Assembly: GCA_017547845.1 (NCBI GenBank)
Contig: JAFYNZ010000054.1
Span: 1-49,101 of the forward strand
DNA from: Muribaculaceae bacterium
Lineage (GTDB): Bacteria; Bacteroidota; Bacteroidia; Bacteroidales; Muribaculaceae
Length of the DNA: 49,101 nt
Direction of reading: 5' to 3'
Part shown: positions 173-15,804 of the stretch, piece by piece
Position numbering within the stretch: the first letter of the stretch is position 1
How the letters are laid out: each line of letters begins with the position of its first letter
The notes under the pieces: generated by a model
The model's database searches: none
What the model was told of the DNA's origin: nothing
The model's input: the letters and a program-made list of their open reading frames with translations, nothing else
Made by a program: the position numbers and the translations under genes

Positions 173-3100
173 TTATCGGATGATGCTCTTGCTGACTTTG
201 TCGCCACGCTTGATGATATAGAGACCACCCTTTTCAGGATTTGCCACCGGGAGACCTTGGAGGTTGAAGTATTCTGCTTCTTGCTCAGCATCGATGCCCT
301 CAATGCCTACTGTGCCTGCTATGCGACATACTGTTGGCTCAAGTGAATATTCTGCGAGATTTGCTTGAGTGAATGTGATGTTGTCAATGCTGATTTCATA
401 GTCGCCTACGAAATTGTTAGCTGCTTTCACTGTGAGGTAAACCAAAGCACCTTCATCACCGTCAAACTCATTAAGACTCATAGAGTAGCTGAGCAATCGG
501 ATAGTGCCATCTGAACGCATAGCTGAAGTCAATACATGGTCACTACCATTTCGGCCGGACAATGAGATCTTATATTCACCATCTTCTTGGCAAAGCTCAA
601 GACCTTCAGGAAGCTTGATATCGGCTTGGAAACCGGAGAATGCAATGTCATTAGTCAAGTTGACTGCGATTGTCTTAGTTTCACCGGCTTGGATTGAGCA
701 ATCCTCGATGAATAAACGACTTCCCATCGCATATTGTCTTGCCACTCTTGCTGCATGTGGAGCTTCTTCAGGTGTTTCACTGCTAAGGATAATATTTGCT
801 ATAGCCACAATGTCGACAATATTAATCTTACCATCATTAGTGAGGTCTGCAGCATCGAAGATGAAGCCTTCAGGAGTATTGCCAAGAATATAGCTGGCTA
901 CGATGAGAATATCAGTCACATTGATTACTGCATCATTGTTGGTGTCACCAGGAGTTGGTACGACTGTCACAATACAAGAAGCAGAAAGGTCCGAACCGTC
1001 GGTAGTGGTAGCAGTGATAACTGCTGAGCCAATACCAATTGCTGTGACAACACCATTGGCATCTACTGTTGCAACTTCTTCATCAGATGATGTCCATGCC
1101 ACGGCTGTATTAGAAGTTGTTTCAGGAAGCACTGTAGCTGTGAGAGTAGTAGTCTGAGTTGCTCCAAGAGATACTTCAGTCTTATCAAGAGAGATGCTCT
1201 TTGCAAGCATGCGAGCTTCCACCTTTGTGGTAGATGGGCTTAATTCATACTCGGTCTCATCTTTTTGAGCGAAGACGATGTCTTTGATATTGATTTCGTA
1301 GTTGCCTACAAAGTCATTCGCCGCAGTGACTATGAATTTCACTACTGCACCTTCCGAGCCTGAGAATTCATTTAAATTTGCAGAGAAGCAAAGGATACGG
1401 ATTGCACAGTTGGCTTGCTTTCCTGATGTGATGACATGGTCGCTACCTTTGCGATCTGTGAGTTCAAAGATGTAGTCGCCATCCTCTTGTTCGATTTCCA
1501 GACCATCAGGCAAGTACAAGTCTGCTTGGAATCCTGTAAACGCAATCTCGTTAGTGAGATTGATAGCTAATTCTTTTGTTTCTCCGGCATTGATAGCGAA
1601 ATCATCGATAAACAATCTTGGCTCTTCTATTTCAATGATATTAGTGAATTGATTCCAATATTCAGCAGCTTCATAGGCAGATTTACAACCTGCCGGTACA
1701 TACAGGTCTATATCATAATTTGAGAATGTATCTGGTTGAATTGTCGGAGGATTAGTCGCTAAGCATGTGATTTTGGTCAAGCTTGTGCAATCCCAGAACG
1801 CCCTGTTTCCAAAAATCGTGACGTTATTTCCGATTACAATGTTTGTCAAACTTGAGCAAGTATTGAATACTCCGTATCCAATACTTATGACACTATTAGG
1901 TATTTCGATGCTTATCAAGCTTGAGCAACCAGAGAACGCATGGTTTCCGATACTTGTGACGCTATTAGGTATTTCGATGCTTGTCAAGTTTGAGCAACCC
2001 GCAAACACACCATCTACAATACTTGTGACGCTATTAGAAATTTCGATGTTTGTCAAGCTTGAGCAACTATTGAACGCACTATTTCCAATACTAGTGACGC
2101 TATTAGGTATTACGATGTTTGTCAAGCTTGAGCAACTATCGAATGCACGGAATCCAATACTTGTGACGCTATTAGGAATTTCAATGCTTGACAAGCTTGA
2201 ACAATGATAGAATGCACCGTCTCCAATACTTGTAACGGAATTAGGAATTTCGATGCTTGTCAAGCTTGAGCAACCATTGAACGCGCAGTATCCAATACTT
2301 GTTACACTATGTGGAATAATAGTGTTTTGACACCCCGCCATGAGCGTATTTGAAGCAGTTTCAATAATAGCATTGCATCCATTTCGTGAATCATATTTAG
2401 CATTGCCTGGATCAACTACAATGCTTGTCAAACCTGAGCAACTAGAGAACGCATTGTTTCCTATACTTATGACGCTATTGGGGATCTTAATGCTTGTCAA
2501 ATTTGAGCAATCACCGAACGCCCATTCTCCAATTTCTGTTATGGAATTTGGTATTTCGATGTTTGTTAAACTTGTACAATCTCTGAACGCCCACTCTCCA
2601 ATACTTGTTACGGAATTAGGTATTTCAACGTTTGTCAAGCTTGAGCAATAATAAAACGCACTGTTCTTAATTGATGTGACGCTGTATGTTATATTTTCCA
2701 ATTTTACGGTTTCAGGAATAACAATATCTCCAGAATAGTTATTGTTGTTATCATACTGGGCTACGGCTACTTCCTGTTCTTTTACAGTAATGATGAAATT
2801 CAAGCCATCTTTGTTAAATTTATAGCCAACTGTTCCGATTTCAATGATATTACTGAAGTTATTCCAATATTCTGCAGTCTCATAAGCCGCTTTGTAACCA
2901 GCCGGCACATATAGGGTTGCGTCATAATTTGAGAATGCGTCTGAAATAGTTGGAGGATTGGTTGCTAAGCATGTGATATCTGACAATGAACAATATATGA
3001 ATGCACTTTCTCCAATACTTGTTACGCTATTAGGGATTACGATGCTGGTCAAGCTTGAGTGCCATGCAAATGCACTCCCTCCAATACTTGTTACCGAATT

Positions 3101-3631
3101 AGGTATTTTACTATTTTTACAACCAGCAATAAGAGTATTCGATGCTGTTTCAATTATAGCATTGCATCCTTCTCGAGAATCATATTTTGTATTGCCAGAA
3201 TCAACAACAATGCTTGTCAAGCCTGAGCAACCACTGAACGCATAGTCTCCAATACTTTTGACACTATTAGGAATTTCAATGCTTGTCAATCTTGAGCAAA
3301 CATTGAATGCACTTTCTCCAATACTTGTTACGCTATTAGGGACTTCAATGTTTGTCAAATAGTAGCACTCATCGAAAGCAAGGTCTCCGATAATTGTAAC
3401 GCTATAAGTAATACCTCCATATGTAACCGTTTCTGGAATTACTATATTGCCTGCATATTCTTCGGTGTATTCATAATGCGAAGAGCCTTTGTAAGTAACC
3501 TCAACTTCGTTACTATTGAGTTTGTTGTAATAGATTCCATCGACTTCGAAGTCGTGAGCGAGTGACGGTAGCCAACCGATGAGCATCATCGCTACAGCGA
3601 CAATGGCTCTACTAAGACCTGAGTGTTTCAT
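173..3631 (-). CDS. Secreted BspA-like leucine-rich-repeat protein with cohesin-like, Big_2 and dockerin domains
   Basis: This 1152-residue protein begins with a signal peptide (about residues 1-25, ending LPSLA). Two blocks of BspA/TpLRR repeats (LRR_5, repeating core NSVTSIGxxAFxxCSSL) span about 60-270 and 295-660. Each closes with the typical cap 'CLATNPPT...LYVPAG' and a YW-rich tail. Then come a cohesin-like beta domain (about 667-805), a Big_2 Ig-like domain (about 809-892), a dockerin-like pair of calcium loops (DTNNDAVINVTD and DLTNDGKINIVD, about 890-950) and a second cohesin-like domain (about 970-1090). The C-terminus (NLQGLPVANPEKGGLYIIK) resembles the sorting tails of Bacteroidales surface proteins. 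BspA-type repeats in this group mediate adhesion or glycan contact; the ligand here cannot be told. It has its own promoter and terminator and no operon partner. Confidence 0.9.
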   Translation of the reverse strand: MKHSGLSRAIVAVAMMLIGWLPSLAHDFEVDGIYYNKLNSNEVEVTYKGSSHYEYTEEYAGNIVIPETVTYGGITYSVTIIGDLAFDECYYLTNIEVPNSVTSIGESAFNVCSRLTSIEIPNSVKSIGDYAFSGCSGLTSIVVDSGNTKYDSREGCNAIIETASNTLIAGCKNSKIPNSVTSIGGSAFAWHSSLTSIVIPNSVTSIGESAFIYCSLSDITCLATNPPTISDAFSNYDATLYVPAGYKAAYETAEYWNNFSNIIEIGTVGYKFNKDGLNFIITVKEQEVAVAQYDNNNNYSGDIVIPETVKLENITYSVTSIKNSAFYYCSSLTNVEIPNSVTSIGEWAFRDCTSLTNIEIPNSITEIGEWAFGDCSNLTSIKIPNSVISIGNNAFSSCSGLTSIVVDPGNAKYDSRNGCNAIIETASNTLMAGCQNTIIPHSVTSIGYCAFNGCSSLTSIEIPNSVTSIGDGAFYHCSSLSSIEIPNSVTSIGFRAFDSCSSLTNIVIPNSVTSIGNSAFNSCSSLTNIEISNSVTSIVDGVFAGCSNLTSIEIPNSVTSIGNHAFSGCSSLISIEIPNSVISIGYGVFNTCSSLTNIVIGNNVTIFGNRAFWDCTSLTKITCLATNPPTIQPDTFSNYDIDLYVPAGCKSAYEAAEYWNQFTNIIEIEEPRLFIDDFAINAGETKELAINLTNEIAFTGFQADLYLPDGLEIEQEDGDYIFELTDRKGSDHVITSGKQANCAIRILCFSANLNEFSGSEGAVVKFIVTAANDFVGNYEINIKDIVFAQKDETEYELSPSTTKVEARMLAKSISLDKTEVSLGATQTTTLTATVLPETTSNTAVAWTSSDEEVATVDANGVVTAIGIGSAVITATTTDGSDLSASCIVTVVPTPGDTNNDAVINVTDILIVASYILGNTPEGFIFDAADLTNDGKINIVDIVAIANIILSSETPEEAPHAARVARQYAMGSRLFIEDCSIQAGETKTIAVNLTNDIAFSGFQADIKLPEGLELCQEDGEYKISLSGRNGSDHVLTSAMRSDGTIRLLSYSMSLNEFDGDEGALVYLTVKAANNFVGDYEISIDNITFTQANLAEYSLEPTVCRIAGTVGIEGIDAEQEAEYFNLQGLPVANPEKGGLYIIKRGDKVSKSIIR

Positions 3632-3812: not shown

Positions 3813-4370
3813 ATGAATATCGTAGTATATTGCAGTTCACGCGCCGACTTGGGTGCTGAATATGAAGAGATTGCCTCTTCTTTGGGGCAGTGGGTCGGAA
3901 GTAACGGACACACCCTTATCTACGGAGGTGTCAATGCCGGACTGATGCATTCCGTTGCGCAGGCTTGCCACGATGCCGGAGCAAAGGTCGTAGGAGTAGT
4001 GCCCGAAGTGTTTAGCTATCGCACCGATGAGGTGTGCGACGAAGTTATCCTCACAGCCGACCTCAACGAGCGTAAGGGCAAGATGATAGAGATAGGCGAT
4101 GTGTTTGTAGTGCTGCCGGGTGGCATAGGCACCATCGATGAATGGGTGTCGACACTTTCCGACATCATGGTCAGAGAGAAGGTCGATGCGAATGCCGACC
4201 GACCAATCGTGGTGGTCAACCATCGTGGAATGTACGACGGCATGATTGCCCAACTCGCTGCAACCAACGACTCACCATTCGCCCGTGGCAAACGTGTCGA
4301 CCGTTCCATCGCTGTCGCCACCATCGAGCAACTGCTACAGACACTCACACACGTTTCCACAAAGGTCTGA
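3813..4370 (+). CDS. LOG family (TIGR00730) nucleoside-5'-monophosphate phosphoribohydrolase
   Basis: This 185-residue cytosolic protein has the LOG-family signature PGGIGTIDE near residue 107 and an N-terminal Rossmann start (VVYCSSRADLG...GLMHSVA). Family members cleave ribose-5-phosphate from nucleotide monophosphates (the 'Lonely Guy' cytokinin-activating reaction), although the physiological substrate in Bacteroidales is not settled. Length is normal for the family. It has its own promoter and stands alone. Its neighbour across a 479-bp gap is a TIR gene on the opposite strand. LOG belongs to the same Rossmann superfamily as the SLOG sensor domains of some TIR defence systems, but this protein has the ordinary catalytic motif and may simply be housekeeping. 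Confidence 0.88.
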   Translation: MNIVVYCSSRADLGAEYEEIASSLGQWVGSNGHTLIYGGVNAGLMHSVAQACHDAGAKVVGVVPEVFSYRTDEVCDEVILTADLNERKGKMIEIGDVFVVLPGGIGTIDEWVSTLSDIMVREKVDANADRPIVVVNHRGMYDGMIAQLAATNDSPFARGKRVDRSIAVATIEQLLQTLTHVSTKV

Positions 4371-4849
4371 CCATATCAACAAAAAAAATATTTCACTAAA
4401 AACCGATAGAAAATCGAACACTTTCCGTTCAATATGGTTATAGTGTAAAGCAAGCGACATCGGAGGAGCAGCAAAGGCAGACTTGCTACTACAAAAGCCC
4501 AAAGGGGCGTCGCCCATTAAATACTGCTGTCCCCCGATTGTCCTCAGATGTCTTCGTTGTTCGAGGGTCGGAAGTGGGACAGAGTCGTGAGCGTTAAATG
4601 TTTGATTACTTGGTTAGAAAATGTTGATATTAGGTTAATTAGTTAAGTCCTTCTGTGGGACGGAAAGAGTGGAGAATTGTGAAATTCCCCATTTTTCTTT
4701 TTATCCCCGCCCTGACATCTTCAGCATGATTTGCTAAGTCCATACCGGCCAGGCTAAAAGACTACAAGATTGACAAGGGGATTATTGGCTCCCGACTTTG
4801 TCAATTTTATCAATATATTGCAGAAATCAAACGTGATTTCGGGACAGAA
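4371..4849. other. 479-bp intergenic region between convergent genes
   Basis: This lies between the convergent ends of the LOG and TIR genes. I find no convincing coding frame. The only structure seen is a hairpin at 4770-4804, listed separately. Confidence 0.5.
4770..4808 (+). terminator. Possible terminator hairpin
   Basis: TTGACAA (4770-4776) pairs with TTGTCAA (4798-4804), with inner GGG/CCC pairing, followed by TTTTA. It sits 46 nt past the end of the minus-strand TIR gene but its T-tract is on the plus strand. It may serve the LOG transcript or be bidirectional. Confidence 0.4.
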
Positions 4850-5956
4850 TCACAGGCGATGAAGAACGTAGGTGATTGCATCTCCGGGGACTTCATCGTC
4901 TCGTTGAGAAGTCTTGAAACCGGATTTGCTGACAATTACTTCCTTTGTCAATGCCTGATGAAGCAATGGTATTTCGATATAGAATTTACCATTGTTATCA
5001 GTCACCCCCGTAAACTTATTGTCAACGTTTACATTGACTCCCTCAAGAGGATTTCCATCGACATCAATCACTATACCTGCAAACAAAGCAAACGATTTAT
5101 CCCGACAAATTTTCACATCAACCTGATTGGCAATTCCGGCTCCGAGCTGTTGAACTAATTCCGTCTTAAAATAATATGTTGCTTCGAATGTGATAGGCAC
5201 GTTTTTAAGTCTCCAGTAGCCGGGTAGAGTGTGATTTATCACTGTGTCGCTATCAACAATCAAATACTCGATGCCATCAATCGATAATTTGGCATCTCTC
5301 ATCTGAGGAAGGTTGCACTCTGCGTCTGTAAATCCAATCGAAACCGTTATCGGAACAGCAAACCAATATATCAAAATGGCTATAACCGCCGACAATATGG
5401 TCGAGCCTATAATTTTCCTGCGACGTTCTCGCTGGTATCGTTGCCATAAACTATCGAATGCTACGCCAAGCATATAAGAGACTACCCTTATTAATGCTTT
5501 ATGACGTCCATTTTCGCGAATATCGATAGCTAATAGTTCATCATCTGGATTCTTTTGAGTATGCTCACGCAAGTAAGTAGGTAGACACTCTCTGTCGTCA
5601 CCACCGATTTCCCCATCGATTATAAGTGGAATGATTTGTGACAGTCTACCCCATTCTACAAACGCCTTTACCTCATTGCTCACCCACTGTGATGATGCAG
5701 AATTGGGCGAACATATCACGATTAGATATTTTGAGTTCTGGAGCTTTTCTCTAAGCACATCTGTCAGCACTCCGCCATCTAAATCGGATCGATCTCGGAA
5801 TACAGGGCGCAAGTATCGTGAACTGTCAAGGTCATTATGAATTTCAGAGGGTAGCTTATACGACTCCAATTTGCGCTGTAGCCACCGAGCGATTTTTTCG
5901 TCTCGGTGACTATAGCTTATGAATGCAAAATATTTTTTATCGTGTTCTTTTGTCAT
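4850..5956 (-). CDS. TIR-domain transmembrane protein with periplasmic CarboxypepD_reg-like domain
   Basis: The 368-residue product starts with a TIR domain (about residues 8-150: FAFISYSHRDEKIARWL, then SPNSASSQWVSNEV, where Glu95 after Trp91 is placed like the catalytic Glu of NAD-cleaving TIRs). A basic stretch (RERRRK) precedes one membrane helix at about 182-208. The outside part (about 210-368) ends in a CarboxypepD_reg/CNA_B-like beta domain (GIVIDVDGNPLEGVNVNV...GVTDNNGKF). The predicted topology is TIR in the cytoplasm and an Ig-like sensor in the periplasm. The start is 23 nt after the stop of the TPR gene, so the two are probably co-transcribed. Many bacterial TIR domains hydrolyse or cyclise NAD+; activity here is inferred from the motif only. 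A pure signalling adaptor is the alternative. Confidence 0.85.
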   Translation of the reverse strand: MTKEHDKKYFAFISYSHRDEKIARWLQRKLESYKLPSEIHNDLDSSRYLRPVFRDRSDLDGGVLTDVLREKLQNSKYLIVICSPNSASSQWVSNEVKAFVEWGRLSQIIPLIIDGEIGGDDRECLPTYLREHTQKNPDDELLAIDIRENGRHKALIRVVSYMLGVAFDSLWQRYQRERRRKIIGSTILSAVIAILIYWFAVPITVSIGFTDAECNLPQMRDAKLSIDGIEYLIVDSDTVINHTLPGYWRLKNVPITFEATYYFKTELVQQLGAGIANQVDVKICRDKSFALFAGIVIDVDGNPLEGVNVNVDNKFTGVTDNNGKFYIEIPLLHQALTKEVIVSKSGFKTSQRDDEVPGDAITYVLHRL

Positions 5957-5979
5957 AGGTTACTTTGCCAACATTTTAC

Positions 5980-8160
5980 TCAGTTGTGAGTCGTAGTTTG
6001 CATCGCTTTTTTGATTTTCTTCATCATTTCCGCGGCTCCATCATTGTCGCCTTTCTTGAGCAATATTTGACCCTTTACATCAAGTAGCTCAGCGTAATTG
6101 TTGGTCAAAAACGATGAGGTGTCATAACTGTTAGCCGGAAATACTTGGATAGCCTTTTCGATAAATTCCAATGCGGAGTCACATGAATCAAGATTCATAT
6201 CTGCGATAGCCAACTCCTTGAGAATCAATATATACTCGTTGATATATGCGTCAGGGTAGTTGGAATATAGCAACTCGCAATATTTAAATGCCTCGCTGCC
6301 GTATTGCTTTGCCTTTTCGTAATTCTCTATAGAATTATAAAGAGTTGCAATATTAATTCCGGGTCTGAATATCGCATCAGCAGATAACAAATTAATTCCG
6401 GATAATTCAATTCTTTTATTACCTGCTTCAATACTTTGTAAATATGCTTGTTCGCTCTTTTCTTTATCGCCCAACGTAGAATACAAGTATCCAAGATTAT
6501 TGTAGATAGCACAAGCATAGGCAATCATTTCAATCTCATTTACTAAATAATATTCTGCTTCTTTGATAACCGAAATAGCCTTTATAAATGCTTGTTCTGA
6601 TTCGTCATACTTTCCCAAAGCAAAACATATTTCTCCTAATGTCTGTAAGTTAGATAAATAAGCAACGCAATACGGTTTCGGATTCTTTTTATAAAACTTT
6701 TCAGAGATTGGCAATGTTTCTTTTATCAGAATAAATGCATCTTCGATTTTATTATTTACTCGAAGAGATAATATATATATGCTAAGACCATTAAGTAAAT
6801 TATATTCATGTCGGTTTATCGGTTTCTTTTGATATAAATTAAATGCTATATTATAGGCCTCTTCGGAATATTTTAACATTTTGGAGTAATCACCGACTTG
6901 CTGATAATAAGATATTAAGCCAAATAATGCTTCACATAAATATATATCATCAATAGTTAAGTCATCCTTGTTATTTAATCGCTCTTCATACTTTAAAAAT
7001 ATTTCAGAAGCTTTTTCAGTTTTGAAAGAGTCACTATAGATTTGGGCAATACAGATTTCGGCGCTCATCATTTCATCATTATACCCCCATTCCTTAGCCT
7101 TTGAGTATGCAATTTGGTATTGCTCAAGTGCTTGCTCGTATTGTCCCATCAAATGCAGTACTATACCATAGCCTGATCTTGCCCACAAATACAAGTGTTT
7201 ATTATTTATTTCTTCAAAGTTTATGTGTTGATAGTATTTAATTTCATCAACATATTTAAGATATTTTGGAAGTAAAGTCTTATAGTCTGCTGGAATATTG
7301 TCATTCTTTGCTATGCTAAAACATATTTCGACGATTTTTTTATACCCATCTTGTCCGCCACGCAACAAATAGGTGTCAAACATATTTGACAATGAGACAA
7401 ACAATTGGTCTAATTCCTTGGATTTTTTAGAACTTTCACTATTAAGCGTGGCGATAGCATGGTCTATCTCTGATTTTTCATCAGCTATCTCATGAATTTT
7501 ATTATCAATTCCTAATTCCTCGTAATGTTTGATTGCTTCATCGATTTCGCCTTGACGCACCAACTCTATAATTTCCTGCTCTTCTTTCGACAATTCGCTT
7601 AAGTCAATGCGCGAAAAACGGTCAACATAATTATCTAATTGGGTTAATTGATAATCATATTCTTCTTCCAAAGCTTTAATTTTATTCTCATATTCTTGTT
7701 GTGTCAGCTTATTTTGCTTGCGCTCCTCTTCAAGTTTCTTTTTGTCTCTGTTGTATTGTCTTTCATAACTTTGAGACGATACTCTGCTATATTCATCGCG
7801 AAGTTTCTTTATATCTTCGCAACGCACCATTACAATTGTAAATGACTCATTTTGCGAGCTTATATACCATTGCTCTAATGCTTCTTTATTGAAAATTTCA
7901 TATCCAAGTTTCTCTATTTTACGCACATTCACCTTGTTTCCCGGTTTAAGTGTTCTGAATTGCAATTCATAGCACCCTTTCTTATCAGATACTGTACTAC
8001 TTGCATTTACTACACTCAATTCTACATTCGACAATGGTGTCTTTTTACTTTTTCCTCTATATTCTTGCACCACACCTTTTTGCAATGTCTGAGCAGACAT
8101 TGGACACATGATGGCAAGCATAGTTGCCACCATAATAAATGTTCTGAAAATAGCTCTCAT
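5980..8160 (-). CDS. Exported tetratricopeptide-repeat protein, partner of the TIR protein
   Basis: This 726-residue protein has a signal peptide (about 1-24, ending MSAQ). A CarboxypepD_reg-like beta domain follows (about 27-110, with 'TPLSNVELSVVN' and 'VSDKKGCYELQF'), then a highly charged coiled coil (about 115-180). The long C-terminal part (about 330-715) consists of TPR helices (for example YSKAKEWGYNDEM, LGKYDESEQAFIKAI, LGDKEKSEQAYLQSIEAG). It should be periplasmic or outer-membrane attached. It is the first gene of the operon with the TIR gene, and both carry the same type of beta domain, suggesting they recognise or assemble with each other outside the inner membrane. The gene is more AT-rich than its housekeeping neighbours. 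The ligand is unknown. Confidence 0.82.
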   Translation of the reverse strand: MRAIFRTFIMVATMLAIMCPMSAQTLQKGVVQEYRGKSKKTPLSNVELSVVNASSTVSDKKGCYELQFRTLKPGNKVNVRKIEKLGYEIFNKEALEQWYISSQNESFTIVMVRCEDIKKLRDEYSRVSSQSYERQYNRDKKKLEEERKQNKLTQQEYENKIKALEEEYDYQLTQLDNYVDRFSRIDLSELSKEEQEIIELVRQGEIDEAIKHYEELGIDNKIHEIADEKSEIDHAIATLNSESSKKSKELDQLFVSLSNMFDTYLLRGGQDGYKKIVEICFSIAKNDNIPADYKTLLPKYLKYVDEIKYYQHINFEEINNKHLYLWARSGYGIVLHLMGQYEQALEQYQIAYSKAKEWGYNDEMMSAEICIAQIYSDSFKTEKASEIFLKYEERLNNKDDLTIDDIYLCEALFGLISYYQQVGDYSKMLKYSEEAYNIAFNLYQKKPINRHEYNLLNGLSIYILSLRVNNKIEDAFILIKETLPISEKFYKKNPKPYCVAYLSNLQTLGEICFALGKYDESEQAFIKAISVIKEAEYYLVNEIEMIAYACAIYNNLGYLYSTLGDKEKSEQAYLQSIEAGNKRIELSGINLLSADAIFRPGINIATLYNSIENYEKAKQYGSEAFKYCELLYSNYPDAYINEYILILKELAIADMNLDSCDSALEFIEKAIQVFPANSYDTSSFLTNNYAELLDVKGQILLKKGDNDGAAEMMKKIKKAMQTTTHN

Positions 8161-8266
8161 AATGTATAAGTGTTAGTTTGTAAAATCGTCTATATGGTTG
8201 AAATTTGCACAATTTTCAATATGCAAATCAAAGCGGAGTCTGCTTGAACTTTTGCAAACTGCGTCG

Positions 8267-8297
8267 CAAATATACGAACATTTTTTTATGTTTCAAA
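8267..8297 (-). promoter_or_regulatory. Promoter of the TPR-TIR operon
   Basis: On the minus strand TATATTTG (8274-8267) matches TAnnTTTG and TTTG (8297-8294) lies 19 nt upstream. The transcript would have a leader of about 100 nt before the TPR gene. Confidence 0.65.
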
Positions 8298-8347
8298 GTG
8301 TATGTTAGAAAAACTTTAATCTGTGATTGCAATATTTGACAATTTAA

Positions 8348-8379
8348 TTTGGTGATAGAACTGAAATTGTGTAACTTTG
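8348..8379 (+). promoter_or_regulatory. Promoter of the transglutaminase-like gene
   Basis: TTTG at 8348-8351 and TAACTTTG at 8372-8379 are separated by 20 nt, the usual Bacteroidetes arrangement. It is divergent from the TPR-TIR promoter about 50 nt away. Confidence 0.7.
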
Positions 8380-8391
8380 CAACATACAAGG

Positions 8392-8419
8392 TCTCTCGAT
8401 ACAAAATCCGACCGAGAGA
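8392..8419 (+). other. Hairpin in the 5' leader of the transglutaminase-like gene
   Basis: TCTCTCG (8392-8398) is a perfect inverted repeat of CGAGAGA (8413-8419) with a 14-nt loop, just after the predicted transcription start. It could be an operator or a leader hairpin; the sequence does not say which. Confidence 0.4.
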
Positions 8420-8467
8420 TGGAAGAGAGAGATAATATCGATATAATTCACTTTACACAGCCTTCAT

Positions 8468-9940
8468 ATGAAAAGATTTTTCGCGGTATCATTAGCCATT
8501 GTTTCATTTGTGGTATGCTCAGCTCAGAGTGCCAATGATTATAATGAATTTCGTCAGAAAATGCTAAATGAGTATGGTAAAACGAAAAGCGAAATGCGCA
8601 AAGACTATGATTCGTTTCGCAGTCGTGTGAATGCTGATTATGCAAATTTTTTGAGAAAGGCATGGGACGAAGGTAAGGTCATTGCGCCTATTCCCAAGCC
8701 TAAAGAGGATACTCCGTTTCCACCTGTTGTTTTTGAAGACAGTCAGGATACGACTATTGTCGAAATGGATATTGTGCCTATCGTGAAACCTCAACCAATG
8801 CCTTCTCCTCAACCAATTGAGCCTATAAAGGAAAATGAAAATAAAACAGAGGTGTTTCCTTTTGATTTCTATGGACTTGATATTTCTATCAGGGTGCCAC
8901 AAGCATTTGGCTTCAATTTAACTATTGCTCCGGAAGATATAGCGTCGGCATGGGAAGAGCTTTCAAATGGCTGTTTTGATAATTCATTGGTGGATTTACT
9001 TTCGATTAGGGAAAATAGTCAGTTATGTGATTGGGCTTATATGCAATTGCTTAAGGAGTTCTCGGATAAGTTTTCAGATGATAAAAACACATCAACTCTA
9101 TTGACTGCATGGCTATTATGTCAGTCGGGATATCAAATTCGTTTAGGACACAATAATAGAGAAATCATTTTGCTATATGCCAGTGATCACACCATCTACG
9201 AAAAGTCATATTTCAACATAGACGGAATGAAGTATTATCCTCTCGGGGAGAATTGCTCGAATCTAAATATATGTAATGCGAAATTTGAAGGGGAGAATCC
9301 TTTGTCGTTGATTATTAGTCAAGAGCAAATGTTTGGTAATAAGAGTAGCAATTTACGAACAATAAAATCCGAACAGTATCCCGATATTAATGTAAGTATT
9401 GCAGTGAATGAGAATTATATTGATTTTTATAATTCTTATCCAAGTTCTTCGATTGGAGATAATTCATTAAGTCGTTGGGCTATATATGCCGATACACCAT
9501 TGACTTCAGATTGTGCCAATAGTTTGTATTCTGAATTTAGGTCTATTTTATCTAATTGTTCTAAATTGGAAGCAGCAGAAAGGTTGTTGAATTGGGTGCA
9601 AACCGGTTTGGAATATGAATATGACGACAACGTGTGGGGAAGAGATAGAGCATTCTTTGTAGAGGAAACTCTCTATTATTCGTATGCAGATTGTGAAGAC
9701 CGTTCAATACTTTTCTCTCGATTGGTCAGAGATTTGCTTGGACTTGATGTCGCATTAATCTATTATCCGGGCCACCTTGCAACTGCTGTTAAGTTTGATA
9801 CTGAAGTCAAGGGTGATGCAATGATTATCGATGGTGAAAAATATATAGTTTGCGATCCAACCTATATCGGTGCTCCTGTGGGCTCTCAAATACCAAGAGC
9901 CGAATCTGATAAAGCTCAAGCAATTGTCTTGCAAAGATAA
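8468..9940 (+). CDS. Exported transglutaminase-like protein
   Basis: The 490-residue product has a signal peptide (about 1-20, ending VVCSAQ), a charged helical stretch (about 24-70) and a proline-rich linker (about 75-130). The C-terminal domain carries what looks like a transglutaminase/papain-type triad: Cys409 in 'YADCEDRS', His436 in 'YPGHLATAV' and Asp463 in 'VCDPTY'. Order and spacing fit the transglutaminase-like superfamily, whose bacterial members are often proteases or cross-linkers. It should act in the periplasm or at the cell surface. It has its own promoter, divergent from the TPR-TIR operon, which suggests shared control. The natural substrate is unknown, and the middle of the protein (about 130-380) has no domain I recognise. 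Confidence 0.75.
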   Translation: MKRFFAVSLAIVSFVVCSAQSANDYNEFRQKMLNEYGKTKSEMRKDYDSFRSRVNADYANFLRKAWDEGKVIAPIPKPKEDTPFPPVVFEDSQDTTIVEMDIVPIVKPQPMPSPQPIEPIKENENKTEVFPFDFYGLDISIRVPQAFGFNLTIAPEDIASAWEELSNGCFDNSLVDLLSIRENSQLCDWAYMQLLKEFSDKFSDDKNTSTLLTAWLLCQSGYQIRLGHNNREIILLYASDHTIYEKSYFNIDGMKYYPLGENCSNLNICNAKFEGENPLSLIISQEQMFGNKSSNLRTIKSEQYPDINVSIAVNENYIDFYNSYPSSSIGDNSLSRWAIYADTPLTSDCANSLYSEFRSILSNCSKLEAAERLLNWVQTGLEYEYDDNVWGRDRAFFVEETLYYSYADCEDRSILFSRLVRDLLGLDVALIYYPGHLATAVKFDTEVKGDAMIIDGEKYIVCDPTYIGAPVGSQIPRAESDKAQAIVLQR

Positions 9941-9991
9941 CAAGAACCACTTTATAGTAGGAACTCTATAGTTTCTACGTTGGGGTAAATC

Positions 9992-10022
9992 TTTGATTGT
10001 CTGCAGATTTTTGTTAAATTTG
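9992..10022 (+). promoter_or_regulatory. Promoter of the sigma-like/RyR operon
   Basis: TTTG at 9992-9995 and TAAATTTG at 10015-10022 are separated by 19 nt. The next start codon is about 90 nt downstream, so the sigma-like gene and the two RyR genes probably form a separate transcript from the transglutaminase gene. Confidence 0.65.
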
Positions 10023-10113
10023 CAACATCGTACTGCGAATGTGGTAAACTTCGTAGCAATGAATGTGAAGAATAAATAGATTTTACTCTATTAACCATGA
10101 CAAGTGAACAATA

Positions 10114-10767
10114 ATGACGGATCAACAAATAATAGAAGCTTTGATTGCTCGTGATGAGAATTTGACTTGCGATTTCTTTTATCGTAAGTGTCGCCCTTTG
10201 TTTGCGAGCATCATTCGTCATGTCTTCTCATATGATGTTGATTATGATGAATTTGTCAATGAGTTTTATCTCTATTTGATGGAGAATGATGCTCATCGCC
10301 TAAAGCAATTTGCCAATAAGAGCACAATCTTTCAGTGGATGAAAGTAGTGGCTATCCGATATTTTTTAGCGAAAAGAGACTCTCTTATAGATATGGAAGC
10401 TAACGAAACTACTTTTGAGTCTGCCGGAGATGATGCTATAAACGATAGTACATGTGTTGCTATAGATACTTGTGCTGTAGGTTACTATGATGAATTCGCC
10501 GAGATATATAGAATTGATATTGTTGGATATAATGGAACAGGGGACCTGAGAACTAATATGGGATATACACTTAATTTGAGAGGGGAGCAAATTCCTTGTG
10601 AATTTTCTTTGAAAGATGCTCCTTCCGGAACTAGAATTGAAGGAAATAAGTTGATTACAGGCCTGGTAGGCGGAACGATTGTTATTTGTGGAAAAGGAGA
10701 TGGATTCAATATCAAACCAAGAACTTTAGAAGTCGAGATGGTTAAAACGAAAAAAGAAAGTAAATAA
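10114..10767 (+). CDS. Sigma-70 region 2-like N-terminus joined to an Ig-like C-terminus
   Basis: Residues 1-95 of this 217-residue protein look like the N-terminal half of a Bacteroidales ECF-type sigma factor (MTDQQIIEALIARDE... DEFVNEFYLYLMENDA... STIFQWMKVVAIRYFLAKRD). The -35-binding region 4 that should follow is absent. After a short linker (about 96-120) comes a beta-rich segment (about 130-210) with features of bacterial Ig-like domains (SLKDAPSGTRIEGNKLITGL). The frame is open throughout, so this is either a real fusion or a recombination scar that kept the frame. It leads the operon with the two RyR genes and may regulate it. Without region 4 it could not act as a normal sigma factor. 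Confidence 0.7.
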   Translation: MTDQQIIEALIARDENLTCDFFYRKCRPLFASIIRHVFSYDVDYDEFVNEFYLYLMENDAHRLKQFANKSTIFQWMKVVAIRYFLAKRDSLIDMEANETTFESAGDDAINDSTCVAIDTCAVGYYDEFAEIYRIDIVGYNGTGDLRTNMGYTLNLRGEQIPCEFSLKDAPSGTRIEGNKLITGLVGGTIVICGKGDGFNIKPRTLEVEMVKTKKESK

Positions 10768-10801
10768 TTGCAAAGCAATCGTTGTGAAACACGAGATGTA
10801 A

Positions 10802-10870
10802 GGTGGTGATTATCTATATGATTTTCCGACGATGGAGGAGTTGCGAGAATATTATAAGACTTGGGAGTAG
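10802..10870 (+). pseudogene. Possible out-of-frame gene tail between the sigma-like and RCK-RyR genes
   Basis: In a different frame from the preceding gene, 22 codons with protein-like composition (GGDYLYDFPTMEELREYYKT, then WE and a stop) follow an in-frame stop at 10799-10801. There is no start codon before the internal ATG. It may be the remnant of the tail of an ancestral sigma or other gene, lost when the upstream gene acquired its present C-terminus. This is weak evidence from a short stretch. Confidence 0.25.
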
Positions 10871-10913
10871 CGAAAGGATTTAGGAAACGGTATTTATAAA
10901 ACAAGATAAGAAT

Positions 10914-13328
10914 ATGATAGGAAGAGCGATAGATAGTGTGAAGGCGGTGGCTGATACGGCGATGGTCGGTCAGCATAAGGTGATGGTGGAGTGCCTGGCT
11001 AATAGTGCTTCGGTGGAAAAGGCAGATTCCAAACTCTGTCATTGGTTGGGACAATTGGTTAATCCCGATGGAGCAAATGTTTGGTGGGAGTCGTGGAACT
11101 TCTGTTTTTTCGCCGGGTTAGTAGTCTTTATATTGCTGTGTGTAGTATTTAGATCAACGTGGAAGAGGGTGGTGGATTTTCTGTCGCATCATTTATTGAT
11201 AGCCTCGTTAATAGTGCTTATAGCCGGCTTTTGGGTTTATACATGGGGGTACTACAATCCTGAATTGGGGTGGTACTCGGTGATTCCACGCTCGGTGATA
11301 TCGTCGTTTAAGATGTTTGTGGTGATGCACGATTTGGCGCGTGTCGATAAGGAATTGTTTACCAACGATTTTTATATGGCATGCTTCTCATTAACGCATT
11401 TTGCGGCCGCATTGCTAACGTTTCTGATGATCTTTAAGTTGGTGGGTTTCAGATTGTTTTCGATAATACGGCTGAAAATTTTGCAATGGCGTTTTCGGTT
11501 TTGTTCTAAAGCGCCGATACATGTATTTTGGGGTATAAACGAGGAGTCGTTGTTGCTTGCCGAGAGTATAAAGGCGAGAGGTGAAAAGGATAGCGCGATA
11601 AAAGATGACCGAATTATCTTTGTGAGTATCGTAAAAGATAGTGCCGACATGCCTCGCCAAAAGGCAACGTTGGCAAGTGTGATAGATGTTGTGACGCTCA
11701 GAAATAGCGAACTTGAACGTCTCGATAAGATAGATGCTTTGGTGGATAATTGTCATAATGGTCCGTCAAGTGTGCAGCCGTCGGAAAATCGTGAGGACGA
11801 GTCGCCTACAGATGTTTTCGGGTCGTTGCGTCTAAGAGTGTTGCGAAAGATTGTAGCTCGTGCCGAAGCTGTCAATTTCTATCTACTATCCGACGATGAG
11901 GAGCAGAATGTGTCGGGAGCGTTAAACCTTCAGAACGATAATACGGTGACAAGTCGCGACAAAGTGAAGATATACGTCCATGCTCGCAAAACGATAAACG
12001 CTGAACTATTCGATACCTACGCTCAATATGTTGAGCACGACGATAAGAAACCAAGTGTTAAGCTTGTCGATTCTGCTTATAAATCGGTCAAGAAGCTTAA
12101 AGAGACTGATGTTGAAGAGACTGATGGCTGCTTACCGGTGGATTGTGTCGATTATGATAAGAAGACCGGTCTTGTAAGCTCGCCGTTCACTTCTTTGATT
12201 GTGGGCTTTAATGCGACGGGGCAAGAGGCTTTCAAGTTTCTCTATGAGCATGGCACGTTTATCGGGCCGAACAAAGAAAAGTTGCCGTTTAAATGCTATG
12301 CAGTCGATCAAAATATGACTGCTATAGAGGGTATTATCACCAGCAAAGTCGGATATGTTATAGACAGCAAGGAGTTGGAGCTGATTAATGCCGAAGTTAA
12401 CTCTAAGGTGTTCTGGGACAAGGTGGAGTTGATAATCAATGATTTGAATTATGCAGTGATTGCGCTTAATAATGATGAACTTGGATTGCAACTTGCAGTC
12501 AATCTATTCAAACTTGCATTGCGTAAGCGTGACAATAAGTTGCCACTTAAGATTGCACTTAGGTGTTACGACAGTCACAATATTCGAATGATGCATAAGG
12601 TAGAGAAAAATCTTAACGAGTCGATTAAAGTTAAAGATAGTGAAAAAGATAGTGGAAAAGATAGTGGAATACATGTTTCGTTGACTGTCTTTGGTGACCA
12701 AAGCAAGATATTCGATTATGAGTCAGTGCTTAGCGATGCGGCGTTGGTAAAAGCCAAGAGATATAACTGGGTGTATGAGCAGACGACACCTCTCTACGAC
12801 AAAGAAAAGGAGGAGATGGATGAAGATGAACAATGGAAATTAAGTTTCGGAGCGGATGCTGTTAAAAGTACGTTAGAGAAACCGGAGTCGCACGGCTCGT
12901 TGTATCATGCCAAATATGAGATGCTGTGCAAGATTGAACAGAATTTTGCTAACGTTGCCCACGCTAAGACTAAGTTGCAACTTATGGGATTGGATAAGGA
13001 GCATCAAAAATTGAATGACTTGTTAAAAGTGATTGAAAATAGGGATCCGGGAAAGACAGACTATAAATGCGACAAAGCTGAATATGCCGAGTTGCTGCAT
13101 AATATGGCTCTTCTTGAGCATGAGAGATTCATCTCTGCTCGACGTTTGAAAGGATTTGAGTATGGTAGTCCGAAGGATTTTGTTAAAAAACATCATGATT
13201 GTTTGTGCCCATTGGAAATGTTGGATGAACTTACACAATCTTACGACTGCAATGTGATTGATACCACTCTCCGATTAAAGGCAGAAGAACCACAGAAAAA
13301 ATCCTCTGAGGGTGATAGAAATGGTTGA
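10914..13328 (+). CDS. Membrane protein with RCK/TrkA-N-like Rossmann domains and C-terminal RyR domain
   Basis: The 804-residue product has hydrophobic segments at about 62-80, 93-113 and 153-178, plus an amphipathic or pore-like stretch at about 119-141. Then follow two Rossmann-like domains, the first starting near residue 202 (IHVFWGINEESLLLAESI) and the second near 428 (SLIVGFNATGQEAFKFLYEHG, with a GxxxxG nucleotide-binding turn). The C-terminal part (about 724-790) is an RyR domain (LLHNMALLEHERFISARRLK...FEYG). This layout resembles ligand-gated channels with a double RCK gating ring. No TVGYG potassium filter is present, so ion selectivity, or whether it is a channel at all, is open. 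It is followed at 40 nt by a free RyR-domain gene. The N-terminal 55 residues are probably cytoplasmic. Confidence 0.75.
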   Translation: MIGRAIDSVKAVADTAMVGQHKVMVECLANSASVEKADSKLCHWLGQLVNPDGANVWWESWNFCFFAGLVVFILLCVVFRSTWKRVVDFLSHHLLIASLIVLIAGFWVYTWGYYNPELGWYSVIPRSVISSFKMFVVMHDLARVDKELFTNDFYMACFSLTHFAAALLTFLMIFKLVGFRLFSIIRLKILQWRFRFCSKAPIHVFWGINEESLLLAESIKARGEKDSAIKDDRIIFVSIVKDSADMPRQKATLASVIDVVTLRNSELERLDKIDALVDNCHNGPSSVQPSENREDESPTDVFGSLRLRVLRKIVARAEAVNFYLLSDDEEQNVSGALNLQNDNTVTSRDKVKIYVHARKTINAELFDTYAQYVEHDDKKPSVKLVDSAYKSVKKLKETDVEETDGCLPVDCVDYDKKTGLVSSPFTSLIVGFNATGQEAFKFLYEHGTFIGPNKEKLPFKCYAVDQNMTAIEGIITSKVGYVIDSKELELINAEVNSKVFWDKVELIINDLNYAVIALNNDELGLQLAVNLFKLALRKRDNKLPLKIALRCYDSHNIRMMHKVEKNLNESIKVKDSEKDSGKDSGIHVSLTVFGDQSKIFDYESVLSDAALVKAKRYNWVYEQTTPLYDKEKEEMDEDEQWKLSFGADAVKSTLEKPESHGSLYHAKYEMLCKIEQNFANVAHAKTKLQLMGLDKEHQKLNDLLKVIENRDPGKTDYKCDKAEYAELLHNMALLEHERFISARRLKGFEYGSPKDFVKKHHDCLCPLEMLDELTQSYDCNVIDTTLRLKAEEPQKKSSEGDRNG

Positions 13329-13368
13329 TGAAATGTTTCTATATAAGAAACGTTAAACTGATTTAGAA

Positions 13369-13659
13369 ATGAGAAAGAATTATGAACCGCAACCGATGGA
13401 CACGAGCGATGTCAAGTTGCCTGAAGAGTTAAATGTCTTGGTGGAACACATGGCGAAGAATGTTCACGAAGTGTGGGCAAAAAGTCGCATGGACCAGGGT
13501 TGGGTGTATGGTGACGAACGCAATGATACCCTCAAGACTCACCCATGCTTGGTGGCATACGAGGAGCTTCCCGAGGTGGAGAAAGCGTATGACCGTGACA
13601 CAGCTCTTGAGACACTAAAGCTAATCAGTAAGTTGGGATTTAAAATCACCCAAGGGTAA
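13369..13659 (+). CDS. Stand-alone RyR-domain protein
   Basis: This 96-residue protein is essentially one RyR domain (the repeat first named in animal ryanodine receptors, PF02026). It has the motifs NVHEVWAKSRMDQGWVYG, THPCLVAYEELPEVEKAYDR and ETLKLISKLGF. It has no signal peptide or membrane segment and should be cytosolic. It is the last gene of the operon with the sigma-like and RCK-RyR genes. Its stop is one base from the stop of the convergent pgeF. The function of bacterial RyR domains is not established; a ligand-binding role is suspected. It may bind the same ligand as, or assemble with, the RyR domain of the preceding protein. Confidence 0.9.
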   Translation: MRKNYEPQPMDTSDVKLPEELNVLVEHMAKNVHEVWAKSRMDQGWVYGDERNDTLKTHPCLVAYEELPEVEKAYDRDTALETLKLISKLGFKITQG

Positions 13660-13660
13660 G

Positions 13661-14596
13661 CTATAATCCTTTCGGGTATGGGTGGAGGGTGATGGCGGTG
13701 ATGAGGCGGGCGGGGGTGCCGGGGTAGCGACGCCAGCTGTGGAATGTGAATGCTTCGCTGCTTGTCAATGACGATTTCAGGCTGTGAATCAATGGATCTT
13801 CAATGGATGGTGATGAGTGCTCGGTGCTGTGTGTCGATTGAGTATCGCAATTTGGCGATAAGGGGTCGGAGCTGACGGATGGAGTGGTGGTGTTGCAGCG
13901 TGATCGGGTAGCAGATGGATTGTCGCTACGATGGTGGCGGGTGCAGGGGGATGAGGTGTTTATATTGTTGGATGCCAAACCTTTGTTAATCATGCGTTTG
14001 AAATTCACTTTGACGAGGTCGATGTGTGGCTTGCGTTGGGCAAAGGCGTTGCCGGTCAGTGGGTCGATGGTGTGGCTGTAGATGACGCTGTCGGCAAATC
14101 CGGCGTCGATGAATTGCTGTGCGAGCGACGGGTCGACTTCGTAGCATTGTGGGCAGATTGATGGCCCAAAGCAAGCATGGATTTTCGTTGGATTGCAACC
14201 GCGGTCGGTGAGCATGTCGATGACGTTGTCGACGATGCCGTGGAGCGTGCCTTTCCACCCGGCGTGTATGGCTGCTACGACTCTGATGTCGGCGGCATAG
14301 AGCAGTATAGGCACGCAGTCGGCTGTGCGAACGCCTATGGTGAGACCATCGATGTCGGTGATAAGTGCGTCGGTGTCGGGAAATAGTGGTGAGGGGTTGA
14401 GTCCGATCTGTTCGGGCAGAAGGTCGGGTGTCACCCATGCGACATTGGCTGTGTGAGTCTGCTGAGGAAGCAAGATGGCTGACGGGGCATCTGATGCAGT
14501 GTCGGAGAGGGGTAGTGATGAGGAAAAGACAGCAACCACATCGGGGTGTAGTTGCTGTGCGTTCCAATATATAGGAGTTGTGTTTTCTTGTGTCAT
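13661..14596 (-). CDS. pgeF: PgeF-family purine nucleoside phosphorylase/laccase-domain protein with an insertion
   Basis: The 311-residue protein belongs to the YfiH/PgeF (multicopper polyphenol oxidase, laccase domain) family. It shows HAGWKGTLHGIV, ACFGPSICPQCYEVD and HIDLVKVN, with the metal/active-site His and Cys residues in place. E. coli PgeF edits wrong amino acids out of peptidoglycan precursors, and relatives act as purine nucleoside phosphorylases. The usual length is about 245-270. The excess is a Ser/Thr/His-rich low-complexity insert (about residues 215-275) just before the conserved end block FHSWRRYPGTPARLI. It follows obgE by 7 nt and is the last gene of the minus-strand operon. 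Confidence 0.88.
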   Translation of the reverse strand: MTQENTTPIYWNAQQLHPDVVAVFSSSLPLSDTASDAPSAILLPQQTHTANVAWVTPDLLPEQIGLNPSPLFPDTDALITDIDGLTIGVRTADCVPILLYAADIRVVAAIHAGWKGTLHGIVDNVIDMLTDRGCNPTKIHACFGPSICPQCYEVDPSLAQQFIDAGFADSVIYSHTIDPLTGNAFAQRKPHIDLVKVNFKRMINKGLASNNINTSSPCTRHHRSDNPSATRSRCNTTTPSVSSDPLSPNCDTQSTHSTEHSSPSIEDPLIHSLKSSLTSSEAFTFHSWRRYPGTPARLITAITLHPYPKGL

Positions 14597-15776: not shown

Positions 15777-15804
15777 TTGTCTAAACTGATTAAGTGGTTG
15801 AACA

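Follow-up and report, generated by a model that had tools for sequence, protein, structure and literature searches.

The locus lies in a window of 49,101 nucleotides (the whole stretch of DNA that was analysed) on contig JAFYNZ010000054.1 of a Muribaculaceae bacterium from the gut. All of the genes named in an initial annotation were found where it had placed them, by Pfam-type profile matches and open reading frames; one further open reading frame, 10114-10767, had been overlooked. The features are:

3813-4370: LOG-family protein (TIGR00730 111.7 bits, over cut-off; Lysine_decarbox 79.2 bits)
4850..5956, minus strand: TIR-TM-CarboxypepD_reg protein of 368 aa that may synthesise the signal (TIR_2 52.9 bits, ThsB_TIR 42.8 bits)
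5672-5674, minus strand: candidate catalytic Glu, E95, of the TIR protein, in an S-x-W-x3-E context
5980..8160, minus strand: exported TPR protein of 726 aa, a candidate sensor partner outside the cytoplasm (TPR matches, hydrophobic N-terminus)
8267..8274, minus strand: TAnnTTTG promoter-like motif 5' of the TPR-TIR pair, individually weak
8468-9940: transglutaminase-like protein (weak match, 20.6 bits against a cut-off of 23)
10015..10022, plus strand: TAnnTTTG promoter-like motif 5' of the sigma remnant, RCK-RyR and RyR genes, individually weak
10114..10767, plus strand: ECF-like sigma factor cut short to its N-terminal ~105-111 aa and followed by an unrelated tail, at most 72% identical to sigma factors of relatives
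10914..13328, plus strand: membrane double-Rossmann (RCK/TrkA_N-like) protein with a C-terminal RyR domain (RCK-RyR), putative signal receiver/effector by profiles and residues
13119-13121, 13128-13130, 13194-13196 and 13245-13247, plus strand: H736, F739, H761 and D778 of RCK-RyR, placed by alignment
13369..13659, plus strand: free RyR-domain protein of 96 aa that may buffer or hydrolyse the signal, with H33, W36, H58 and D75 (PF02026 124.7 bits)

Proteins encoded at the locus

The TIR gene follows the TPR gene on the same strand, and this pair is separated from the RCK-RyR and RyR genes, which lie on the opposite strand, by two genes. The TIR protein has a single hydrophobic segment near residue 181, its residues 293-352 match CarboxypepD_reg at 28.7 bits (below the 32.3 cut-off), and full-length relatives with 45-49% identity occur in four genomes of the family. 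The initial annotation had called the candidate catalytic glutamate intact, and E95 indeed falls in a conserved column: glutamate is present in 110 of the 111 TIR genes (108 distinct) of a local-profile collection, with a gap in the remaining one. No DUF4062 (PF13271) match was seen in this protein at an E-value of 0.1. PADLOC reported weak TIR or ThsB-type models for the TIR protein (ThsB models at 28 bits or less), two weak matches for the TPR protein and, among ten genes of relatives, matches for three TIR-bearing proteins only; assignment to a known defence system was rejected. The TAnnTTTG motif, which we take to be the promoter consensus at both window sites, occurs 50 times in the window against 31 expected.

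The RCK-RyR protein has hydrophobic segments near residues 58, 85 and 153, followed by conserved glycines in two Rossmann-like stretches (G207 and G431/G436). In an alignment of 66 sequences, F135 between the transmembrane segments is conserved in all and D140 in 53, and the membrane part showed no K+ filter motif. TrkA_N gave no match to the window protein or to its Fusobacterium relative; its cut-off was passed by the relatives L254 (as L235), L256 and L257 and by those of Sinorhizobium and Arcobacter. The C-terminal RyR domain scores 21.5 bits, under the Pfam cut-off of 27.4, and only 8 of 16 members of the RCK-RyR family show a RyR match at E 0.1 or better. Distant RCK-RyR relatives also passed the RyR cut-off, and comparison of the fused RyR profile with that of the free RyR family gave 98.4% in hhalign.

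Two of the remaining genes were rejected as components of the system. Homologues of the LOG gene occur in only 2 of 79 RCK-RyR loci in named genomes; because this gene is not a conserved part, the parallel with Thoeris SLOG proteins drawn in the initial annotation falls. Homologues of the transglutaminase-like gene occur in none of the 79; one was seen near YfiH in a genus mate (L282), and apart from that match the flanks share only YfiH with six genus mates. Homologues of the truncated sigma factor adjoin RyR genes in relatives. The anti-sigma-like RyR gene that lies 3' of the sigma gene in those relatives was not found in the window, and the foreign tail of the sigma remnant has no homologue among the genes of the collected loci. 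In some relatives RyR stands beside sigma and anti-sigma-like genes, and a fusion of RyR to an anti-sigma-like protein also occurs in relatives.

Linkage of TIR and RyR genes in relatives

We counted associations in a sample of 149 genomes of the family, leaving out the window genome and using raw counts in which kinship is ignored. A TIR_2 protein is encoded in 26/30 RyR-positive and in 16/118 RyR-negative genomes, and a TIR gene lies within 10 kb of 23 of the 42 RyR anchors, versus 0.9 expected. As control anchors we used one accessory class, type I restriction specificity genes, 113 in number after 37 second-half rows of listed genes had been removed from the 150 rows listed (one gene of the TIR-less genome G097 being lost). 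Among the matches listed, only 1/113 of these has a TIR gene within 10 kb; with anchors confined to TIR-bearing genomes the comparison is 23/37 for RyR versus 1/32 for the control (again among the matches listed). At the genome level the control genes show no association with TIR (26/82 versus 16/66, P=0.21, among the matches listed).

The same linkage was seen in named genomes, where 48 of the 79 RCK-RyR loci have TIR in their flanks (a raw count, kinship ignored), or 45/71 once eight loci that repeat family-sample loci are dropped. As for the 31 loci lacking a flanking TIR, 28 of those genomes carry one elsewhere, in trans, and three have none. The nearest TIR is on the same strand as RCK-RyR in 41/46 cases and belongs to the same directon in 35 of the 76 loci with a full RCK-RyR ORF; TPR homologues are present in 16/79, 15 of them also with TIR. 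The initial annotation had let its grouping stand or fall with co-occurrence of the TIR-TPR and RyR pairs in related genomes, and this is what we found: all four genes are present in 10/79 loci, eight of which form one directon with the genes co-directional and gaps of at most 95 bp. The core of its model, a TIR that would make an NAD-derived signal, an RCK-RyR protein that would respond and two operons that would belong together, withstood this check, and inclusion of the LOG and transglutaminase-like genes found no support. A further gene in such operons encodes an LRR-caspase protein with a hydrophobic N-terminus (Pfam run on L171 only).

RCK-RyR also pairs with TIR or TIR-like genes beyond the family. 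In other parts of the phylum, TIR adjoins four divergent RCK-RyR genes (L254-L257) and lies 3.6 kb from a fifth (L260), and in Fusobacterium a TIR gene is 3 bp upstream of RCK-RyR. The neighbour is a TIR-like DUF4062 protein in Arcobacter (54.2 bits, over cut-off), where RCK-RyR is split and the copy is on a plasmid with a type I restriction gene and recombinases close by, and in Sinorhizobium a protein scoring 23.6 bits, just below the DUF4062 cut-off of 24.7. The local profile picked out no free RyR gene in the distant loci, and tandem-RyR proteins in seven loci have RyR domains with no TIR nearby. Stand-alone RyR genes with the HWHD residue set are found on phage-like contigs; no RCK-RyR gene on a viral contig was confirmed, and neither plasmids searched with the window protein nor phages searched with a distant RCK-RyR protein yielded one. 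On contig L277 an RCK-like ORF lies beside TIR, in what looks like host DNA. Taken together, these results demonstrate that TIR and RyR genes are paired in relatives far beyond chance, and that the window holds such genes with their key residues intact, the strong linkage of TIR with RyR genes being conserved into other phyla.

A proposed signalling route and its alternatives

The free RyR profile matches the solved B. thetaiotaomicron RyR protein 3nrt. Of 57 free RyR genes, 54 of them distinct, 55 carry the HWHD set. In the fused domain the corresponding residues are H736 (66/66), W739 (65/66), H761 (63/66) and D778 (66/66), the window protein being the only one with F at position 739; in Fusobacterium the D of the set lies at a shifted position, and Sinorhizobium lacks it. 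The window residues are spaced +0/+3/+25/+42, as are H75/W78/H100/D117 of the phage protein RyDEP, so that counterparts of its ligand-handling residues align in both window RyR domains, with F for W in the fused one. Nanomolar binding constants for 2'/3'cADPR have been reported for two phage RyR domains that belong to the same Pfam family, as have hydrolase and sponge roles of phage RyR proteins, H75 and D117 as the catalytic pair of RyDEP and binding of adenine ligands by the R12 repeat of human RyR3 (PMC13232231). The phage homologues thus lend outside experimental support to RyR as a domain for ADPR-type ligands.

We consider it likely, judging from sequence, that the locus encodes a two-part system in which TIR makes an ADP-ribose-type signal, RCK-RyR receives it and the free RyR protein removes it. 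Activation of the membrane-anchored TIR would probably run via its outer region together with the exported TPR protein, and the enzyme would turn NAD+ into a product of the ADP-ribose type, either ADP-ribose itself or a cyclic isomer. The RCK/TrkA_N-like membrane protein may bind this product through the RyR domain at its cytosolic end, upon which the protein would change state, most likely opening an ion pathway and leading to growth stop or cell death; free RyR would bind or hydrolyse the same molecule and so end the response. The signal, its binding, the ion flow and an anti-phage purpose are what we infer. Against this two-part reading stand the split strands, the truncated sigma factor, F739, the TIR-less loci and the RyR domains with no TIR nearby, as do the altered D in two distant relatives, the K+ filter that was looked for in vain, the Kch comparison and the neglect of kinship in the counts.

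The same wiring might instead serve envelope stress or community signalling with periplasmic sensing parts, which we regard as possible but somewhat doubtful. The TIR protein, with its predicted transmembrane segment and then a CarboxypepD_reg-like domain, and the hydrophobic N-terminus of its TPR partner would fit such a role, as would the LRR-caspase gene with its own hydrophobic N-terminus (L171 only) and the RyR genes next to sigma/anti-sigma-like genes; the Arcobacter plasmid copy with its restriction gene and recombinases and the HWHD RyR genes of phage-like contigs speak against it.

In other proteins NAD(H) is a ligand of RCK/TrkA_N folds, and TrkA_N passes its cut-off in distant members. 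It is conceivable, if unlikely, that there is no dedicated signal: RCK-RyR would sense the fall of NAD(H) or the rise of ADP-ribose caused by a plain TIR NADase, its Rossmann domains reading the dinucleotide pool and its RyR domain binding generic adenine nucleotides. The adenine ligands of human RyR3 R12 (PMC13232231) agree with this, as does the DUF4062 neighbour in Arcobacter and, with a score just short of the cut-off, Sinorhizobium, a domain reported to hydrolyse NAD+ to ADP-ribose (PMC13174449). However, the nanomolar binding by the phage domains argues for a specific ligand, and a dedicated free RyR protein suits a specific signal better than a bulk pool.

We find it still less probable that the RyR proteins are an antidote that destroys or holds the product of a toxic TIR (with TPR and, in some relatives, the caspase-like protein). 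Counterparts of the RyDEP H75/D117 pair in both window RyR proteins and the hydrolase or sponge activity of phage RyR proteins would agree with an antidote, but the membrane part and two Rossmann domains would be needless for one, and distant loci that pair RCK-RyR with TIR, no free RyR being tagged, suggest a receiver. Hitch-hiking of TIR and RyR genes in shared variable islands, in keeping with the patchiness of both (31 and 43 of 149 genomes), is very improbable given the one control class (1/113 among the matches listed) and the adjacency or overlap seen again in further families of the phylum and beyond it.

Known systems and meaning

CASTOR and POLLUX are RCK-gated ion channels. Like the RCK-gated channels Slo, MthK and Kch, RCK-RyR appears to have transmembrane segments followed by two Rossmann domains, with TrkA_N over its cut-off in distant members; it differs in that no TVGYG-type filter was seen, in its C-terminal RyR domain and in giving no match between the window family and E. 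coli Kch. In a second family (A6), Slo-like_RCK matches weakly, at 16.4 bits against a cut-off of 24, and hhalign pairs the family weakly with Kch, at a probability of 43%. Animal ryanodine receptors, known for the R12 repeat and cADPR-linked Ca2+ release, are matched by the free RyR profile (RyR1-3), whereas the window has a bacterial gene pair and, in a PDB sequence search, the RCK-RyR profile matched the receptors in the RyR region only. Thoeris likewise combines in one operon a TIR, of the ThsB_TIR kind matched by the window protein, and a second protein with a candidate sensor for the TIR product; however, PADLOC found no ThsA among seven window proteins, and the receiver here would be the membrane TrkA_N/RCK-RyR protein. 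RyDEP, an anti-Thoeris protein (PMC13232231), shares PF02026 and the residue spacing but is a phage counter-defence, whereas the window RyR domains are host-encoded, TIR-linked and in one case fused to a membrane Rossmann protein. Swarozyc is alike through the DUF4062 neighbours of RCK-RyR, but is described as acting by NAD+ depletion, and the window TIR is a canonical TIR_2; RyR, ryanodine and TrkA were not found in the text on Swarozyc (PMC13174449).

For host-encoded bacterial RyR-domain proteins we found no described role in the open-licence literature searched. Nor did the accessible part of that literature yield a paper on a bacterial TIR and RyR/RCK gene pair, which may be mentioned in a 2015 NAR survey said to treat nucleotide-centric conflict systems. 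RyR and ryanodine do not occur in PMC9503650, PMC7824862 or PMC7159879.

As distant bacteria share the partnership, it has the look of a genuine signalling system, for stress or against phage, that is as yet undescribed. That host RyR-domain proteins of several phyla are found time and again with TIR or TIR-like NADases further suggests that they probably receive or remove a TIR-made nucleotide. TIR signalling would thereby gain a membrane receiver, the presence of RyR proteins in phages would be explained, and there would be a small system for direct tests of the cADPR-ryanodine receptor link. More tentatively, and with the balance of our belief against it, the locus may encode a bacterial cyclic-ADP-ribose-gated channel, in which TIR would make the signal, RCK-RyR would open, free RyR would end the response and, in relatives, the anti-sigma-like RyR would pass it on to transcription. 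If true, the animal link between cADPR and the ryanodine receptor would have a counterpart in bacteria, which might be its ancestor.

Gene content and conserved residues

All of the genes named in the initial annotation are present in the window, whose contig is one of 69 in an assembly of 2.32 Mb. The features considered here are:

4850-5956, minus strand: TIR gene
5980-8160, minus strand: TPR gene, the exported partner of the TIR gene
8267-8274, minus strand: TAnnTTTG promoter-like motif 5' of the TPR gene, individually weak
8468-9940, plus strand: transglutaminase-like gene
10015-10022, plus strand: TAnnTTTG promoter-like motif 5' of the sigma ORF, individually weak
10114-10767, plus strand: sigma-like ORF
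10914-13328, plus strand: RCK-RyR, a membrane double-Rossmann protein with an RyR domain
13369-13659, plus strand: free RyR protein

We take TAnnTTTG to be a promoter-like consensus for both motifs. Elsewhere on the minus strand are a BspA-like LRR protein of 1152 aa with Big_2 and dockerin domains (173-3631) and a YfiH/Cu-oxidase_4 gene (13661-14596), which is convergent with the free RyR gene, nearly abuts it, and encodes an unusual Ser/Thr-rich run beyond residue ~226.

The window TIR carries an S-x-W-x3-E motif with E95, and this column is E in 110 of the 111 TIR genes (108 distinct) collected by local profiles, with a gap in the other. A preprint of May 2026 reports that RyDEP, a phage RyR-domain protein, cleaves 2'/3'cADPR with catalysis by H75 and D117 and ligand contacts through W78 and H100; binding of 2'/3'cADPR signals is reported there for 6 of 8 phage homologues (PMC13232231). 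The spacing of these residues (+3, +25 and +42 from H75) recurs in the window free RyR as H33, W36, H58 and D75, and HWHD was found in 55 of 57 free RyR genes (54 distinct) of the collected loci. In a 66-sequence alignment of the fused RCK-RyR family, H736 and D778 are kept in all 66 and H761 in 63; 65 sequences have W at position 739, where the window protein has F. A scan for HWHD at fixed spacing recovered only 17 of 96 fused-class genes; we put this low count down to insertions and place more trust in the alignment.

Association of TIR and RyR genes

We queried the 149 genomes of the window's family with the RCK-RyR protein (27 genomes matched, some through RyR alone), the TIR protein (28), PF02026 (31), the TPR protein (10, at E 1e-10) and PF13676 (TIR_2; 43, at E 1e-5). 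With the window genome excluded, TIR_2 was present in 26 of 30 RyR-positive compared with 16 of 118 RyR-negative genomes; it lay within 10 kb of 23 of 42 RyR anchors, where 0.9 were expected (random positions, 2.5 Mb), and TIR-RyR linkage was seen in 14 of the 30 RyR genomes compared with a mean of 1.1 over 20,000 random placements. Anchors that share a locus are non-independent observations, and the statistics ignore kinship. Type I restriction specificity anchors served as the control, 113 being kept among the first 150 rows of a longer list. A TIR lay within 10 kb of one of these 113, at a locus that also has RCK-RyR; 32 of them, compared with 37 of the 42 RyR anchors, were in TIR-bearing genomes, and the restriction control had no genome-level association with TIR (26/82 versus 16/66, P=0.21).

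A scan of contigs of named genomes, using the RCK-RyR alignment as query, yielded 104 confirmed relatives, from which 79 loci were kept, nearly all titled as Bacteroidales or groups inside it. One, L214, is titled Clostridium sp., a label that is probably wrong: L102 (G118, from the window's own family) has an identical RCK protein. Within flanks of at most 10 kb, frequently shortened by contig ends, a TIR was found at 48 of the 79 loci, or 45 of 71 after removal of the 8 that duplicate family-sample loci; the TPR partner was found at 16, 15 of them with TIR. The RCK-RyR ORF is complete at 76 loci, 46 of which had a TIR (28 of 44 with full flanks and 18 of 32 with cut flanks), the nearest being on the RCK-RyR strand in 41 of the 46 (binomial P 2e-8), within 300 bp in 20 and in the same directon in 35. 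For 28 of the 31 flank-TIR-negative loci, a TIR was present elsewhere in the genome.

All four window genes occur together at ten named loci (L149, L158, L170, L171, L174, L175, L177, L182, L201 and L219), eight of which, all but L158 and L219, have them in a single co-directional run where no gap exceeds 95 bp. In L219, TIR-TPR is divergent from RCK-RyR and RyR, an arrangement resembling that of the window. These comparisons demonstrated linkage, intact residues and architecture, and comparative genomics supports well the central TIR-RyR link proposed in the initial annotation; the LOG-family and transglutaminase-like genes, which it had listed in the same region, drop out.

Accessory modules and distant relatives

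Other flank genes at the 79 named loci were a second RCK-RyR family (A6; 15 loci), an ECF-like sigma gene (11, and 7 family-sample loci), an M48 protease (11), an anti-sigma-like RyR gene (10) and PrsW (7). The A6 family retains H, W, H and D and matches the first at 98.1% across 466 columns. In relatives, the gene after sigma encodes an N-terminal 'LAAFLDGNVS'-type segment, which we take to resemble anti-sigma factors, a middle part that matches C39 weakly and below cut-off, and an RyR at the C-terminus; it lies directly 3' of sigma in L092 (15559-16545), L104 (11602-12546) and other loci. The pair is possibly a nucleotide-controlled sigma switch. The window ORF retains approximately the first 105-111 aa of the relatives' sigma, in frame with an unrelated tail, Ig-like in look; sigma region 4 and the anti-sigma-like RyR gene are absent, as after a deletion, and none of the best 40 matches for window 7901-14000 covered the N-terminal part of the anti-sigma-like RyR protein alone. 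The L171 operon includes an LRR protein (15312-16820) whose N-terminus is hydrophobic and which has a caspase domain (61.2 bits; Pfam, L171 only). A gene of 502-504 aa occupies this position also in L158, L166, L170, L177, L182 and L184.

In a phylum sample of 296 genomes, matches were found in 20 besides the window genome. Fourteen belong to a single genus, of another class, and are tandem-RyR proteins of a different kind; in seven of these (L258, L259, L261-L265), local profiles found no TIR nearby. These proteins have 875-890 aa (the L264 ORF is shorter) and carry two RyR domains at the C-terminus, reminiscent of the R12 pair of animals; that of L258 has weak AAA matches under cut-off (Pfam, L258 only). 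We examined loci of five of the other six genomes, leaving out G313 (a TM-region match). TrkA_N and RyR were both over cut-off in L254 (as L235), L256 and L257; local profiles assigned L255, of the same genus as L254, and L260. The TIR gene overlaps RCK-RyR in L254 and lies 4 bp away in L256, 23 bp in L257 and 3.6 kb in L260; in L255 it adjoins RCK-RyR, but its ORF is short and possibly broken.

The L254 protein matched five records of a plasmid collection. In Fusobacterium vincentii, a TIR-WD40 gene lies 3 bp upstream of a putative RCK-RyR gene, called from local profiles with neither domain found by Pfam. In Sinorhizobium (three records, one locus type; Pfam on one), TrkA_N is over cut-off and RyR under (18.2), and the partner gene, overlapping by 4 bp, encodes 747 aa with DUF4062 just under cut-off (23.6 versus 24.7) and AAA and TPR matches. 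In Arcobacter, TrkA_N and RyR are split into separate genes, both over cut-off, adjoining a DUF4062 gene (54.2 bits) with a type I restriction gene close by. One study describes DUF4062 as a TIR-like NADase that acts in defence against phage (PMC13174449). All 11 rows of an RyR alignment keep both H columns and the W/F column, and D is shifted by one in Fusobacterium and missing in Sinorhizobium.

Phage RyR proteins and the proposed pathway

Sixteen viral contigs (L266-L281) encode relatives of the free RyR, at 36-63% identity; an RyR-tagged ORF was read in 13, with HWHD in 10. Among ten proteins of four contigs compared with PHROGs, those of L271 and L272 matched ligases and other families of nucleotide metabolism, as would suit phage, and L268 had a match to a transposase family; L277, with TIR and RCK-like genes, is host DNA by appearance. 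The window free RyR also matched 234 named phage records, all but two below 60% identity. These matches would fit a counter-defence role of phage RyR proteins.

We propose that the TIR makes an ADPR-type molecule, that the fused RyR domain of RCK-RyR binds it, that the ligand-bound membrane protein alters ion flow, and that the free RyR would terminate the signal. The segment between the RCK-RyR TM helices, with F135 in 66/66 and D140 in 53/66, could be pore-like; no K+ filter was seen in it. The periplasmic parts make envelope stress a possible alternative use. We consider a defence role the most probable, since TIR, DUF4062 and phage RyR all point there. The system resembles Thoeris in its proposed way of working as a TIR system but differs in its effector, on which it falls outside Thoeris; we therefore place it as a variant of TIR nucleotide signalling.
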